A stretch of 50,711 bases of DNA from Nanobdellota archaeon (GTDB taxonomy: Archaea > Nanoarchaeota > Nanoarchaeia > Woesearchaeales > GW2011-AR9), in NCBI GenBank assembly GCA_002687775.1, contig NZBF01000016.1:1-50711 (forward strand), given 5' to 3'. Of this stretch, positions 1,242 through 43,680 are shown piece by piece. Each line of letters opens with the position of its first letter. The first letter of the stretch is position 1. The position numbers were made by a program, and so were the translations under genes. Below the pieces are notes generated by a model, which was not told where the DNA came from, did no database searches, and was given only the letters and a program-made list of their open reading frames with translations.

Positions 1242-3809
1242 ATGGAACACGTACACAAAAAAGTTCAGAAAATTTCCTTTGGTGTATTTTCACCAAGGCA
1301 TATGGTAGACTTAGCTGCTGCTAAGATTGTTACGCCTGAGTTATATGATAGGGAAGGATACCCTGTTGATGGTGGATTAATGGATATTCGATTGGGTGTT
1401 ATCGATCCAGGTTTAAAGTGTAAAACCTGCGGTGGGAAATTAAAGGAATGTGCAGGACATTTTGGATACATTGAACTTGCTAGACCAATCGTACACATTA
1501 AATTTGTGCGTCAAGTGTTAGATTTATTACGTTCAACCTGTAAATTTTGTAGCAGGATTTTGATGGAAGATGGACCTGGCATCAAAAATATTCTGGAGAA
1601 ATTGGACAAAGTTGAACATGAAGAAGGATTAGATCAAAGACGGAAGCAAGTTAAAGAGCTTATAATCAAAAAAAGTAAGACCAAAAGTAAATGCCCACAT
1701 TGCCAGAAAAAACAAGCAGTTGTGAAATTGGAGAAACCTTATTCATTTTATGAAGATGATGTGAAAATCAGTCCTATTGAAGTTCGTGCACGATTGGAAA
1801 AAATTTCTGATGAAGATGCGGCGATACTTGGATTTAATCCTAAGAAAATTAGGCCTGAATGGACCGTATTGACTATTTTACAGATTCCGCCAGTTACCAT
1901 GCGACCATCTATTACTCTGGAGTCAGGAGAGCGAAGTGAAGATGATTTAACGCATAAATTGGGTGATGTCGTTCGAATTAATCAGAGATTATTTGAGAAT
2001 ATTAACGCTGGAGCTCCAGAAATCATCATTGAAGATTTATGGGATTTATTACAGTATCACATTACTACTTATTTTGATAATTCAGTTGCACAGTTACCAC
2101 CTGCTCGGCACCGTGGTGGGCAAATGTTAAAAACGCTTATTGATCGAATTAAGAGTAAAGAAGGACGTATCAGGCATAACTTAGCAGGAAAAAGAACAAA
2201 TTTCTCCGCACGTACTGTCATTAGTCCAGATCCTATGATTGATTTGAATGAAGTAGGAGTTCCTCTACGAATTGCAATGAATTTGACAGTACCTGAACAA
2301 GTAACTGCATGGAATAAGGCATATTTGAAGAAATTTTTAGAAAATGGTCCTAAGAAATATCCAGGAGCTAATTATGTTATTCGATCTGATGGACGACGGA
2401 AATCTATCACTGAGGAAACTAAAGAAGAAATTATTGAAGAATTTGAAGAAGGGTTCTTTGTAGAACGTCACTTGTTAAATGGTGATATTGCTATCTTCAA
2501 CAGGCAACCAAGTTTACATCGAATGTCTATGATGGCTCACAAAGTTCGCATTTTACCGGGTAAAACATTACGGTTAAATCCTGCCGTTTGTCACCCGTAT
2601 AACGCAGATTTTGACGGTGACGAGATGAATTTACACGTTCCGCAAACTGAAGAAGCACGTGCTGAAGCTGAGATTTTAATGCTGGTGCAGACACAATTAA
2701 TTTCACCACGTTACGGATTAAGTGTCGTGGGTTGCATCCATGATGGAATTAGTGGAAATTATTTATTAACAAAATATCTAAAAATTCCACGGCAGGAAGT
2801 GATTTCCATATTATTTAACGCTGGGGTTACTGATTTCACACGATTACCAAAGAAAGAAAACCTTACTGGTCAAGAAATTTTTTCGATGGTTTTACCGGAA
2901 GATTTCAATTTCAAAGGAAAAGATAAGAGCGGGGATGAAGTAGTTATTGAAAAAGGAATGTTAAAGAAAGGTGTCATGGATAAAGCTAACTTAGGTCAAG
3001 AAAGTGGATTACTTTTAAGAAATATTTTTGAAAAATATGGTGAAGCATACACTGCTGCATTAATCAATCGAATTTCTCGGTTGGGAGTGCAGGTTGCAAC
3101 TCGAAATGGGTTCTCGGTTAATATTAGCGACATGGATGTTAATGAAAAGACATTACGCACCATTGAGGAAGAATTGGCGGCAGCTAAGAAAAATGTTTTT
3201 GATTTGATTCAGCAATACAAAAATAGTGAATTGAAAGCATTACCAGGACGAACATTGGAAGAAACATTGGAAGTGAACATTTTAACATTACTTAACCAAG
3301 TGCGAAATAGTACAGGAAATGCCGTGATTGCTGAGGAAAAAATAACAACCACATTAATGATGGCACGTTCTGGTAGTAGAGGAAACGTACTGAACATTTC
3401 TCAGATGTCTGCTATAGTTGGTCAACAGTCGTTACGTGGAGCGCGAATTGGTGAAGGATTCCAGCAACGGTCATTACCATTCTTCTCTCGGGGAGATTTA
3501 GGCGCGCATGCCCGAGGATTCATTGCAAACAATTTCAGAGTAGGATTAAACCCAGCCGAATTTTATTTTGGAGCAATGCTTGGAAGAGATTCATTAATGG
3601 ATACTGCGTTACGTACTCCTAAGTCTGGTTACTTATATAGAAGGTTATCTAACGCAATGCAAGATTTGAAAGTTGAATATGATTACACAGTACGGGACGC
3701 TAACAAGCGAATTGTACAATTTAGGTATGGTGAAGATGGATTAGATGTTAGCAAAACTGAAAATGGAATCATCAATGTAAAGAAAGTTATCGAGGAAATG
3801 GCAGAATGA
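1242..3809 (+). CDS. rpo1N: DNA-directed RNA polymerase subunit A' (Rpo1N)
   Basis: The N-terminal two thirds of the largest RNA polymerase subunit (855 aa), which in archaea is split from A''. It carries the invariant metal-binding motif NADFDGDEMN at about residues 453-462, whose three Asp hold the catalytic Mg2+. The N-terminal clamp has a C-x2-C-x6-C-x2-H zinc site at about residue 60 and further CxxC pairs (CKFC, CPHC). The bridge/trigger-loop region is left to the next gene. The ATG lies 2 nt after the rpoB stop, and the 3' end overlaps rpo1C by 4 nt, so translational coupling is likely. Length is normal for the family. Confidence 0.98.
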   Translation: MEHVHKKVQKISFGVFSPRHMVDLAAAKIVTPELYDREGYPVDGGLMDIRLGVIDPGLKCKTCGGKLKECAGHFGYIELARPIVHIKFVRQVLDLLRSTCKFCSRILMEDGPGIKNILEKLDKVEHEEGLDQRRKQVKELIIKKSKTKSKCPHCQKKQAVVKLEKPYSFYEDDVKISPIEVRARLEKISDEDAAILGFNPKKIRPEWTVLTILQIPPVTMRPSITLESGERSEDDLTHKLGDVVRINQRLFENINAGAPEIIIEDLWDLLQYHITTYFDNSVAQLPPARHRGGQMLKTLIDRIKSKEGRIRHNLAGKRTNFSARTVISPDPMIDLNEVGVPLRIAMNLTVPEQVTAWNKAYLKKFLENGPKKYPGANYVIRSDGRRKSITEETKEEIIEEFEEGFFVERHLLNGDIAIFNRQPSLHRMSMMAHKVRILPGKTLRLNPAVCHPYNADFDGDEMNLHVPQTEEARAEAEILMLVQTQLISPRYGLSVVGCIHDGISGNYLLTKYLKIPRQEVISILFNAGVTDFTRLPKKENLTGQEIFSMVLPEDFNFKGKDKSGDEVVIEKGMLKKGVMDKANLGQESGLLLRNIFEKYGEAYTAALINRISRLGVQVATRNGFSVNISDMDVNEKTLRTIEEELAAAKKNVFDLIQQYKNSELKALPGRTLEETLEVNILTLLNQVRNSTGNAVIAEEKITTTLMMARSGSRGNVLNISQMSAIVGQQSLRGARIGEGFQQRSLPFFSRGDLGAHARGFIANNFRVGLNPAEFYFGAMLGRDSLMDTALRTPKSGYLYRRLSNAMQDLKVEYDYTVRDANKRIVQFRYGEDGLDVSKTENGIINVKKVIEEMAE

Positions 3810-28325: not shown

Positions 28326-28451
28326 TTAATTGAAAGATAATTTCGTAGTTTAAATACTTTCTTATTTACTGCATTTTTCAGATAAAAAGAATTCATTAAC
28401 TATCTGAACATCAATGGTTCTAGAAAAGACATGCGCCGGCCGGGATTCGAA

Positions 28452-28479
28452 TATCCGGACGTAAACAACGTTCACATCT
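28452..28479 (-). other. tRNA-Gly intron 2 (53/54, T-arm)
   Basis: A 28-nt intron in a strict BHB motif: exon TCCG pairs with intron CGGA, bulges are GGA and TAT, and the intron stem GATGTGAAC/GTTTACGTC has 9 pairs (two wobbles) with loop GTT. Cutting after the second base of each bulge gives a perfect T-arm, CCGGG-TTCGAAT-CCCGG. Confidence 0.95.
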
Positions 28480-28494
28480 CCCGGATCACCGGCT

Positions 28495-28530
28495 CACATC
28501 AAAGTGAGCAGTCATTAACCACTGACCTTT
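28495..28530 (-). other. tRNA-Gly intron 1 (37/38)
   Basis: A 36-nt intron. Exon CTTC pairs with intron GATG (one U-U mismatch), bulges are CAA and TGA (3 nt each), and AAGGT pairs with ACTTT as the intron stem, with an inner CAGT/ACTG hairpin. Cutting after the second base of each bulge rebuilds the CTTCCAA anticodon loop. Confidence 0.9.
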
Positions 28531-28601
28531 TGGAAGGCCGGGATTCTAGCCATTAAACTACCGGCGCACAAATGTGTTAAGAAGTGAATTTCTTTATAAA
28601 A

Positions 28602-40474: not shown

Positions 40475-41347
40475 ATGAAATTTGATCAAAATCTTTCTGC
40501 TATTCATGGATATCTTTGCGGAGATGGATATGTCATAAAAAATCCGGAAACCCAAAATCACAAATATTACCATATAGGGTTTCGGAACACAAATGAAATT
40601 CTCTTAAAAGATTTTCAAAAGAAATTTCAAACTATTTTTAGATTGAAGCCGCACATAACAAATGAAGGTAGATGTAGAATTCAGAACAAAGATATTTATC
40701 ATTTCCTGACAAAAAAATATTCTTATTATTCATATGAATGGGAATTACCCACACTTTCACAACAAAATCTTAGGTTTTGGTTACGAGCATTTTTTGATTG
40801 CGAAGGTTGGGTTGAAAATCAACCGCGAAAAAGCAGACTTATTGGTCTAGATTGTTGCAACGAATTTGGAATTCTAAGCATCCGAGATTCTTTAGAAAAA
40901 TTAGGAATAAAATCTCAAGTTAAGAAAAAATCAAACAGAACAATTTGGCGAATAGCAATCTGTGGATTACACAATCTGAAAAGATTTCAGAAAGAAGTCA
41001 ATTTCCTACATCCAGAAAAAAAGAGTAAACTGAGTGAAGCTATTAACTCTTATCAAGACTATATTTGGGAGATTCCTACAAGTAAAAGTGGTGTTTTGAA
41101 ATTAATCGAACAAAAAGGAAGAATTAGGAAATCAAGAGCAGAAATAAGATTTATTTCAATTAAGAGAAAAAACTTAACAAATCTGGCGAAAGCTTTAAAT
41201 ACGTATCAAATGCCCTCGAAACTGTTTGGGCCTTGGAAAAATAATTCCGGTTCCAAATATTATTGTTTAGTAATCAAAGAAAAAAACATCCAATGGAAAG
41301 ACCAGAACCTGGACCACCTCCAGGAACAAAGCAAATCTCTGAAGTGA
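40475..41347 (+). CDS. LAGLIDADG homing endonuclease
   Basis: A 290-aa protein with two LAGLIDADG helices: AIHGYLCGDG (residues 9-18) and WLRAFFDCEG (about residues 102-111), about 90 residues apart as in monomeric two-motif homing enzymes; the acidic ends (D17, E110) are the metal ligands. These enzymes cut long DNA sites and spread introns or inteins. This one is free-standing, and its last 18 codons overlap the start of rtcB in another frame. rtcB carries a BHB intron at 41522. Basic and AT-rich, it looks recently acquired. Confidence 0.92.
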   Translation: MKFDQNLSAIHGYLCGDGYVIKNPETQNHKYYHIGFRNTNEILLKDFQKKFQTIFRLKPHITNEGRCRIQNKDIYHFLTKKYSYYSYEWELPTLSQQNLRFWLRAFFDCEGWVENQPRKSRLIGLDCCNEFGILSIRDSLEKLGIKSQVKKKSNRTIWRIAICGLHNLKRFQKEVNFLHPEKKSKLSEAINSYQDYIWEIPTSKSGVLKLIEQKGRIRKSRAEIRFISIKRKNLTNLAKALNTYQMPSKLFGPWKNNSGSKYYCLVIKEKNIQWKDQNLDHLQEQSKSLK

Positions 41348-42799
41348 TGTGGGAAGTACCTACTACTTTCAAACAAGGTATGCGTGTTCCAGCGAGGGTT
41401 ATTGCAAGTAAGGAACTTATTGAAACGATGGATGGCGGAGTATTTAATCAAATAACAAATGTGGCAACATTGCCCGGGATTACCAAATATGCCTACTGTA
41501 TGCCAGACGGGCATTGGGGATTCTGAATAAGGACATCCTTATTTGGCCCTTTATGGTTTTCCCATCGGTGGAGTTGCAGCGTTTGACGTTGAAGCAGGTG
41601 GAGTCATTTCACCTGGCGGAATTGGATTCGATATTAATTGCGGAATGCGATTGATGACCACCAATTTGACGATTGATGAAGTGCGGCCAAAAATCAAAGA
41701 GTTAGTCGATGCTCTGTATGATGCTGTTCCAGCTGGTGTCGGTTGTAAAGGATTTGTCAAGATTTCTAAGGAAGAATTTCGAAATGTTATGACGAATGGT
41801 GCGCAATGGTGTCTCGATAATGGATATGCATGGCCGGAAGATATCGAACATATTGAAAGTAATGGGAAAATTCCACAAGCGAATGCTGATAAAGTTTCTG
41901 AGAAAGCTGTCAAGCGAGGATTTGATCAAATTGGCACATTAGGAAGTGGGAATCATTACTTGGAAATTCAGGAAGTGCGTGAAGGGAACATTTATGACAG
42001 TAAAGCTGCTGCCAAAATGGGGATTACGAAAACTGGTCAAATTGTTATTATGGTTCATTGCGGTTCTCGAGGATTTGGTCATCAAATTGGAACGGATTAT
42101 TTACGAAAATTCTTAGAAATTATGCCCAAGTATGGCATTGAAATAAGAGATAAAGAATTAGCCTGTGCTCCGTTTAATTCACCGGAGGGTCAGGATTATT
42201 ACCAAGCCATGGCGTGCGCTGCAAACATGGCGTTTGCCAACCGTCAAGTAATTACTCATCAAATTCGAAAAACGTTCGAGAAAGTTTTCGGAAAAACAGC
42301 TAGAGAGATGGAAATCAATTTGGTCTATGATGTTGCCCATAACATTGCGAAGTTGGAGAAATATATGATTGATGGTGTTGAGAAGGAGTTACTTGTGCAT
42401 AGGAAAGGATCAACCCGTGCTTTTGGTCCATCTCGAGCTGAAGAGTTACCTGAAGATTATAAAGAAATTGGACAACCCGTTATTCTAGGTGGATCTATGG
42501 AAACTGGTTCATGGTTACTTCTTGGTACAGATGGTGCTGACGAAACATTTGCAAGTACTGCGCATGGTGCAGGTCGCACAATGAGTCGAACAAAGGCAAA
42601 GAAATTAGTGCAAGGTGCCGAATTGCAAAAAGATATGGAACGGCGTGGTATTTATGTGCATGGCGTTACTATGAAAGGACTTGCTGAAGAAGCAGGTAAA
42701 GCGTACAAAGATGTTGATGAAGTGGTAGAAACATTAGTTCGTGCTGGTATTACCAAGAAAGTTGTTGCATTGAAACCGATTGGTAATGTGAAAGGATAA
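41293..42799 (+). CDS. rtcB: RtcB RNA-splicing ligase, interrupted by a 31-nt BHB intron
   Basis: RtcB joins tRNA exon ends (2',3'-cyclic phosphate to 5'-OH) after endonuclease cleavage, using GTP and Mn2+. Exon 1 is 41293-41521, exon 2 41553-42799. Spliced length is 491 aa, normal for the family. Motifs: WEVPTTFKQGMRVPARV, LPGITKY, HWG-YGFPIGGVAAFD (at the junction), DINCGMRLM (metal Cys), VHCGSRGFGHQ, HRKGSTRAFGP and TAHGAGRTMSRTKAK (guanylated His). Without splicing, translation ends at TGA 41524-41526. An in-frame ATG at 41263 would add 10 residues. The start overlaps the endonuclease gene. Confidence 0.97.
41522..41552 (+). other. BHB intron in rtcB mRNA
   Basis: A 31-nt intron with a strict bulge-helix-bulge. 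Exon GGGG (41516-41519) pairs with CCCT (41547-41550); bulges are ATT and TTA; the intron stem CTGAATAAGG (41523-41532) pairs with CCTTATTTGG (41537-41546), loop ACAT. Cutting after the second base of each bulge gives exactly HWG-YGFPIGG. The intron contains an in-frame TGA and is not a multiple of three. Confidence 0.93.
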
Positions 42800-42831: not shown

Positions 42832-43680
42832 ATGAGGTGGAATGTTCTTTGTGTATTACTTGTAGTTTTTATTATTGGATGTGGTAGTGTTGAAGTGGAA
42901 AACAATTCTACTGATAAGGTTGATGGTGACATGGTTTGTGGGAATGGCATTCTTGAGCCAACTCATGGAGAAGATTGTGATGATGGTAATACTGTTGACG
43001 ATGATGGTTGTGATTCTGAATGCAGTCTTGAAGTTGCTGAAACTGTCTGTGGCGATGGTGTATTACAAGAACGTGATGGTGAAGATTGTGATGATGGTAA
43101 CATTCTAAATGACGATGGATGTAACACTAAATGTAGCGTTGAAGAAGGTTGGGAATGTTCACCTGACTGTGTGGAAGTTTGTGGTAACGACATTGTTACT
43201 TCGGGTGAAGAATGTGACGATGGAAATGATGAAGAGGGAGATGGTTGTTTCAATTGTAAATTGCAGGAAAGAGATCCATTTTGTCACTACCTTGATAGTT
43301 CAGGAAATGAGAAGGAAGATGAATGGAAATTGACTAATTTCACGAAACCGTATGAGTATAACGGTGTACGCACTGAGGAGAAAGATTTTTTGAATACATG
43401 CAACGACGATTTCTCTGCTCTTGAACAAGAAGTATGTGGCAATGCAATCCCATATAAATCAGGAATTAATGTTAGACGGGGACCTATCCAGATTGTTGAA
43501 TGTGAATTTGATTGTAACCGTGGAACTAATAGATGTTGCGCGGTCACAAAAACTGAACAAACATGTAAGGGGGATCTTCTCATAAATAGTACTACTATTG
43601 ATTGTTTCCCGGGGAATCCTATTGAAGTGGAAATTACCTGTGATGAAGGATTAAGTTGTAGCGACGGTGAATGTAAATGA
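42832..43680 (+). CDS. Putative Cys-rich surface lipoprotein with DUF4215-like repeats
   Basis: A 282-aa secreted protein. The signal sequence ends in lipobox IIGC (Cys17), almost the same as in the lipoprotein at 38806 (both FIIGCG). Three tandem Cys-rich units of the Myxococcus-type repeat follow, each C-G-(N/D)-G...E-x-C-D-D-G-N...D-G-C: about residues 30-60, 65-95 and 110-145. The rest is Cys-rich with no named domain. Such repeats are often on adhesins or cell-surface proteins. The stop overlaps the site-2 protease start by 4 nt. Confidence 0.75.
   Translation: MRWNVLCVLLVVFIIGCGSVEVENNSTDKVDGDMVCGNGILEPTHGEDCDDGNTVDDDGCDSECSLEVAETVCGDGVLQERDGEDCDDGNILNDDGCNTKCSVEEGWECSPDCVEVCGNDIVTSGEECDDGNDEEGDGCFNCKLQERDPFCHYLDSSGNEKEDEWKLTNFTKPYEYNGVRTEEKDFLNTCNDDFSALEQEVCGNAIPYKSGINVRRGPIQIVECEFDCNRGTNRCCAVTKTEQTCKGDLLINSTTIDCFPGNPIEVEITCDEGLSCSDGECK

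Follow-up and report, generated by a model that had tools for sequence, protein, structure and literature searches.

The stretch of DNA that we analyzed (the window, 50,711 nt of contig NZBF01000016.1 from a Nanobdellota archaeon) carries an rtcB gene whose reading frame is interrupted by 31 nt at positions 41522-41552. These nucleotides separate two RtcB frames, one of which stops at 41526 while the other spans 41543-42799, and they bring both an in-frame stop and a frameshift into the gene. Pfam RtcB matched the first frame over profile positions 1-24 (23.9 bits, under the 27-bit cut-off) and the second over positions 25-426 (528 bits), in agreement with a preliminary description of this DNA, which had claimed that two RtcB frames are split in this manner. 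A free-standing LAGLIDADG endonuclease gene overlaps the start of rtcB by 55 nt. Directly after rtcB, at 42832-43680, lies a cysteine-rich open reading frame with DUF4215 repeats. The features discussed below, all on the + strand, are the following.

40475-41347, +: free-standing LAGLIDADG endonuclease gene (PF14528, LAGLIDADG_3, E=4.5e-20, in two stretches)
41293-42799, +: rtcB, interrupted; spliced frame of 1476 nt, or 491 aa plus stop (frames, excision, Pfam)
41293-41521, +: predicted rtcB exon 1, which resembles the N-termini of uninterrupted RtcB proteins
41522-41552, +: predicted bulge-helix-bulge (BHB) intron of 31 nt, at site A (excision, two-strand scan, comparative solver)
41553-42799, +: predicted rtcB exon 2 (excision, Pfam RtcB)
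41516-41519, +: GGGG, the exonic 5′ strand of the central helix, covarying with the 3′ strand in the introns at site A
41520-41522, +: 5′ bulge ATT, with a predicted cut after 41521 (cutting rule)
41523-41546, +: 10-bp inner stem (two pairs G-U) with the loop ACAT (excision, site-A alignment)
41547-41550, +: CCCT, the intronic 3′ strand of the central helix (covariation)
41551-41553, +: 3′ bulge TTA, with a predicted cut after 41552 (cutting rule)

Excision of 41522-41552 yields a single open frame of 1476 nt that starts with the ATG at 41293 and closes at 42799. Without excision the 5′ frame terminates as MPDGHWGF-stop; excision rebuilds the conserved block MPDGHWGYGFPIGG (HWGYGFPIGG, block 1), as the preliminary description had stated for both the spliced frame and the block; the comparison with uninterrupted rtcB genes that it had proposed found the rebuilt block intact in many homologs. 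An intein is ruled out as the nature of this insert by the in-frame stop and the frame shift, and a group I or group II intron by the length of only 31 nt and the lack of a catalytic RNA core. Rfam gave one match over its cut-off in the whole window, a tRNA.

The junction had been called a textbook BHB, and this description held in part. The GGGG/CCCT central helix (4 bp, including one G-U pair), the ATT and TTA bulges and the 10-bp inner stem are present as claimed, but the outer helix is poor, with only one of the first four outer pairs forming in the canonical register. The motif therefore lacks the full hBHBh′ arrangement with both outer helices and is a relaxed form only; helices on both sides are not required in relaxed BHB forms. 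As expected of an EndA substrate, the 4-bp central helix lies between 3-nt bulges on opposite strands, and a cut after the second nucleotide of each bulge restores the gene product. When both strands of the window were scanned for BHB geometry, the site at 41522-41552 ranked first. A strict scan (inner stem of at least 10 bp, G or C at 7 or more of the 8 central-helix positions) gave one match in the window, none in nine of ten Markov-randomized windows and one in the tenth, and looser BHB motifs numbered 21 in the window and 15-40 in the randomized windows, and so were not enriched. The folding energy was ordinary (z = -0.70; 50 of 200 shuffles were at least as stable), and the centroid fold of the region does not contain the BHB motif. 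Given the weak outer helix, the ordinary folding energy and the different centroid fold, the case for an intron must rest on comparison with other rtcB genes.

This comparison uncovered a recurrent, patchily distributed set of interrupted rtcB genes, which the preliminary description had not seen, just as it had not mentioned the LAGLIDADG gene overlapping the 5′ end of rtcB. We found 77 inserts of 12-33 nt whose removal restores the reading frame, distributed over 61 rtcB genes, which comprise the window's and 60 public ones (the total also takes in those of G009 and G010). The inserts occupy ten positions, three in MPDGHWGYGFPIGG (block 1) and seven in GGIGFDINCGMR (block 2), and 16 of the 61 genes carry two. 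If not removed, 74 of the 77 would leave an in-frame stop and 47 a frameshift, and none would leave neither. Record titles of the lineages bearing these inserts include Woesearchaeota, Nanoarchaeota and Aenigmatarchaeota. Among the 120 nearest proteins listed, 19 (that of the window included) begin at or past block MPDGHWGYGFPIGG, although some of these may simply be cut by contig ends, and a genome scan that returned 80 rtcB loci contained 12 with a short insert in this block and 2 with inteins further on. RtcB was present in 314 of 352 genomes of the order to which genome G001 belongs (a survey that leaves aside G326 and G327), and at least 39 of these 314 have short inserts, as judged by stops, splits and covariance-model matches. 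Thirty-seven of the 39 were solved from DNA, while G115 and G249 rest on covariance-model or Pfam matches without a solved insert; the share is a minimum, as genes truncated at contig ends are still counted in the total. In the phylum of G008, a sample of 135 genomes included 116 with RtcB and solved inserts in 16 genes, and five more solved genes came from scanning 371 genomes in the phylum of G001 with a covariance model.

The solver left L196, L199 and L206 unsolved, as well as block 1 of L202 and L205 and block 2 of L198, L207 and L209, and it skipped L203 and L204; L128 has masked bases, and L130, L131 and L134 stop at contig ends. L197 has stops elsewhere in the gene and both blocks intact. 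Stop-free introns were sought in four unusually long intact genes (G148, G082, G083 and G077), where there were none; they could be missed in other genes without stops, as the search covered only these four. The shortest inserts, of 12 nt, lie in block 2 of L027, L055 and L116, contain an in-frame stop and fit the same cutting rule, with a GAGG/CCTT central helix and a CCCG/CGGG outer helix; by our reading of the fold they would be of a bulge-helix-loop type. The 12-nt inserts of L055 and L116 are identical, including 25 nt on each side, and the block-1 introns of the two genes are at different positions. Separately, we observed that the rtcB genes of L135 (in G115) and L132 (in G272) are without the stretch between or across both intron-prone blocks, through deletion or misassembly, and that G055 has a long open RtcB frame split near profile position 28.

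Splice sites were solved by finding excisions that restore the protein block and then checking the BHB rule. The frame-restoring cut was unique in 18 of the 77 inserts. Since the solver took the best central helix among the 1-12 frame-restoring cuts of each insert, a choice that favors the motif, the counts at the rule offset should be read with that in mind: all four central pairs form in 50 of the 77 inserts and at least three in 73. Among the first 52 inserts, 33 combined four central pairs with an inner stem of at least 3 bp, and this combination occurred in none of the 52 when the 3′ cut was moved by 1-6 nt in either direction (at +1, four central pairs formed in 14 of the 52, without an inner stem).

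Covariation was most evident at site A, the position of the window's intron, which is shared by 28 introns. The exon and intron halves of the central helix at this site include GGGG/CCCT, AGGG/CCCT, AAGG/CCTT, TTGG/CCAG and TAGG/CCTG; the exon half tracks the local codons (HWG, HEG, HFG, HIG), and the intron half tracks the exon half. At site A 104 of 112 pairs form, relative to a shuffle mean of 90.6 (none of 5000 shuffles as high), and at site B 78 of 100, relative to a mean of 74.8 (10 of 5000 as high), in a test that can be inflated by the relatedness of the sequences. The site-A introns have a weak outer helix. Only three of the four central pairs form in 22 of the 25 site-B introns, and four site-A introns (L118, L119, L198 and L201) pair at only two of four. 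In an alignment of seven close site-A sequences (A2), there were one-sided changes only and no two-sided change.

Compared with the window, the rtcB exons of three intron-bearing relatives gave dN of 0.165-0.292 and dS of 1.96-2.26 (dS being computable in three of seven comparisons), so that the exons are under purifying selection. Taken together, the 60 other rtcB genes, the covariation at site A and the purifying selection support the BHB intron and the exact splice sites that had been put forward for this locus, and we consider that the 31 nt at 41522-41552 are very probably a spliced BHB intron of the rtcB mRNA.

A pseudogene or an assembly error might be suggested by the largely metagenome-derived sequences and by the deletions at some loci (L132, L135), but is exceedingly improbable, given that 60 further interrupted rtcB genes follow the same rule, that dN is well below dS where computable, and that a single rtcB locus was found in each of the ten intron genomes first checked (weak, divergent RtcB-family matches occur in G177 and G249 of the wider genome set). 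We give equally little credence to a split RtcB, in which the two frames would produce two proteins that assemble without splicing. The second frame does appear among protein predictions, as a product of about 400 aa, and it can be aligned with the solved P. horikoshii RtcB chain over positions 70-481 of the latter; however, a split protein would not need the full 4-bp central helix that stands at the splicing-rule offset in 50 of the 77 inserts, and the predicted starts of the second frame vary among relatives (MALYGF, MAAFD, VISPGG, MRL).

Translational bypassing, in which the ribosome hops over a hairpin, is known from phage T4 gene 60 and from the mobile byp elements of yeast mitochondria, and byp-type elements can also have an endonuclease nearby. 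The rtcB inserts share with these elements their short hairpins, their stop codons (74 of 77), their patchy distribution and, in some genomes, an endonuclease neighbor. In gene 60 and byp, however, the take-off and landing triplets match at codon boundaries, whereas they match in only one of the 53 rtcB inserts where a codon boundary is possible, and in 24 of the 77 the block is rebuilt only via a split codon, the junction tyrosine being Y in all 101 uninterrupted homologs tested. Under a looser pattern that accepts F at the tyrosine, a split codon is needed in 3 of 77 inserts, and the triplets match in 2 of 74. As a ribosomal hop also does not need covariation of the central helix, bypassing is a very unlikely explanation.

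If the insert is a BHB intron, its removal would follow the archaeal route outlined in PMC7714728, in which the cut by a splicing endonuclease is followed by ligation, and RtcB belongs to a ligase family described as widespread in archaea (PMC4090602). Of 42 intron-bearing relatives, 37 gave an EndA match and five gave none. No Pab1020-type ATP RNA ligase scored over the cut-off in any of the 42 intron genomes, while PF09414 did so in seven, some of them in long frames that may be DNA ligases; another ligase is possible in genomes with these PF09414 matches. Internal stops were absent from the control genes, that is, from the listed matches to the RadA family (41 genomes) and to EndA (37 genomes), so that, within the three gene families tested, the interruptions appear to be confined to rtcB. 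In the window itself, a tRNA match at 28432-28567 on the - strand (136 nt) is enlarged by about 36 nt in the anticodon arm and by 28 nt in the variable/T region, and ARAGORN called no tRNA in the window. This tRNA is possibly intron-containing, and if it is, the organism would need EndA and RtcB anyway.

We predict that EndA excises 41522-41552 from the rtcB mRNA and that RtcB itself would then seal the rtcB exons. We infer that splicing takes place in the cell and that RtcB, rather than another ligase, does the sealing. The maturation of rtcB mRNA would thus probably depend on pre-existing RtcB, as the preliminary description had proposed, and the single rtcB locus in each of the ten intron genomes first checked, the lack of over-cut-off matches to a Pab1020-type ligase and the occurrence of PF09414 in only 7 of 42 genomes are consistent with this self-dependence. 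Such a loop need not stall, because RtcB would be inherited at cell division, and it would act as positive feedback.

Homing endonucleases in archaeal rRNA BHB introns are often LAGLIDADG proteins, and the LAGLIDADG gene overlapping rtcB in the window is not an isolated case. In the 352 genomes of the order, homologs were matched at E values up to 1e-10 in 30, and strong homologs (E < 1e-48) were present in 16. Fifteen of these 16 adjoin rtcB, with the remaining one (G184) at the end of another contig, and 13 of the 15 lie beside an intron-bearing rtcB. A strong endonuclease gene was thus found beside rtcB in 13 of 39 intron genomes and in 2 of 275 others (Fisher p = 2e-11, uncorrected for kinship). 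In G100 the gene adjoins an rtcB that has no intron, and in G065 one with an intein; it is interrupted by a stop in G162, split in G135 and short in G001. Four more endonuclease genes adjoin intron-bearing rtcB in the other phylum (L061, L190, L193 and L201), and there are endonuclease remnants in L124, L135 and L187. Solved structures searched with the endonuclease sequence returned weak matches to V-ATPase and V-type ATP synthase chains (best E 0.006).

The arrangement in the window and in these other genomes, with a free-standing homing endonuclease gene adjoining an intron-bearing gene, is that of collaborative homing. It is likely that the endonuclease cleaves rtcB copies without an intron close to the insertion sites, and that repair templated by an intron-bearing copy would then spread the intron and the endonuclease together. 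L010 may preserve a trace of such events: the 5′ end of rtcB is present there a second time, as a truncated copy upstream of the LAGLIDADG gene, with a complete rtcB on the other side (duplicated stretches 1743-1988 and 2847-3092), and the extra copy stops at VATLPGI, directly before block 1, as might be expected of a scar of cutting and repair. On an RtcB tree of 109 rows, 102 of them scored, the minimum number of state changes was 15 for site A and 14 for site B. This was a quick tree of an uneven sample, which left out bacterial rows and L128, L131, L132, L134, L164 and L203, and in which the rows of L089, L196, L198, L199, L202 and L204-L207 are unscored. The window's intron is 68-87% alike to nine other GGGG-type site-A introns, and the corresponding protein likeness is 62-78%, with the intron likeness being the lower in two of the nine pairs; as the introns are little more alike than the proteins, transfer is not proven by sequence alone.

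These observations must be weighed against a reading in which the introns are spliced BHB introns that do not move by means of the neighboring gene, being instead ancestral or randomly gained and frequently lost, with the endonuclease as an independent parasite of the rtcB locus. No strong endonuclease lies beside rtcB in 26 of the 39 intron genomes of the order, one does lie beside two rtcB genes without a short intron, and intron positions 2-13 and 2-18 occur without an endonuclease in the fetched flanks of L111, L113 and L133; the small difference between intron and protein likeness fits this reading as well. Against it stand the enrichment of the endonuclease beside intron-bearing rtcB and the tree, which needs a minimum of 14-15 state changes per site; in addition, a block-1 intron is present in all 18 endonuclease-linked intron genes (though also in 55 of the 61 genes overall). 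We regard non-mobile introns as a serious possibility that nonetheless falls well short of even odds, and homing of the introns by the neighboring endonuclease as somewhat probable. For the most far-reaching reading, in which a BHB mini-intron and a free-standing LAGLIDADG gene form one mobile cassette that repeatedly invaded rtcB and made its expression autocatalytic, we tentatively put the probability at about 0.45.

The closest parallel among protein-coding genes is cbf5 of crenarchaea, for which BHB splicing of the mRNA has been confirmed, while introns in other protein genes had, according to the same source, been predicted without confirmation (PMC2738675). Another account cites a single mRNA with the BHB motif and describes a further mRNA that is cut by the enzyme (PMC7714728). 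As described in PMC2738675, the cbf5 introns (16-44 bp) are like the rtcB inserts in being short, in interrupting a gene for a protein of RNA metabolism, in having been gained and lost, and in being too short to hold an endonuclease. They differ in that the host gene here is that of the splicing ligase, in records titled Woesearchaeota, Nanoarchaeota or Aenigmatarchaeota, with inserts of 12-33 nt at ten positions in two blocks and up to two per gene, and with an endonuclease gene adjoining some rtcB genes; moreover, cbf5 splicing is confirmed (PMC2738675), whereas that of rtcB is predicted from sequence. A free-standing endonuclease gene, F-CphI, likewise adjoins the intron-bearing psbA gene of cyanophage S-PM2, a case of collaborative homing in which, according to PMC6083498, the intron prevents self-cleavage. 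That system combines a group I intron with an Endo VII-type enzyme in a phage and was tested by cleavage (PMC6083498), whereas the rtcB case, read from archaeal genomes, pairs a predicted EndA-type mini-intron with a LAGLIDADG protein. In archaeal rRNA, BHB introns occur that contain homing endonuclease genes (PMC2738675, PMC6125680). They resemble the rtcB case in associating a BHB intron with a homing endonuclease, but in rtcB the endonuclease gene is not within the intron, and the interrupted transcript is an mRNA. We found no rtcB intron in the literature searched, most subscription papers being outside that search, in keeping with the preliminary description, which was aware of none of this kind.

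Some relatives (L016, L019) carry an intein of about 1.5 kb at the DINC block of their RtcB, as do many other genomes, with frames of about 870-1040 aa. These inteins fall in the same conserved region as the second intron block; unlike the window's insert, they are in-frame and are removed from the protein.

The recurrent set provides dozens of candidate mRNA introns with which the gain and loss of archaeal introns can be tested, and its 12-nt members fall below the 16-44 bp given for cbf5 in PMC2738675. As at least 39 of the 314 genomes with RtcB in one order carry an interrupted gene, reading frames alone would call these genes fragments. If splicing is confirmed, rtcB mRNA would need its own product, and bootstrapping and feedback in RNA repair could be tested directly on it. 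And if the cassette explanation is true, there would be no mature rtcB mRNA without RtcB, the parasite would have guaranteed its own splicing ligase, and the host would carry a positive-feedback switch on RNA ligation.
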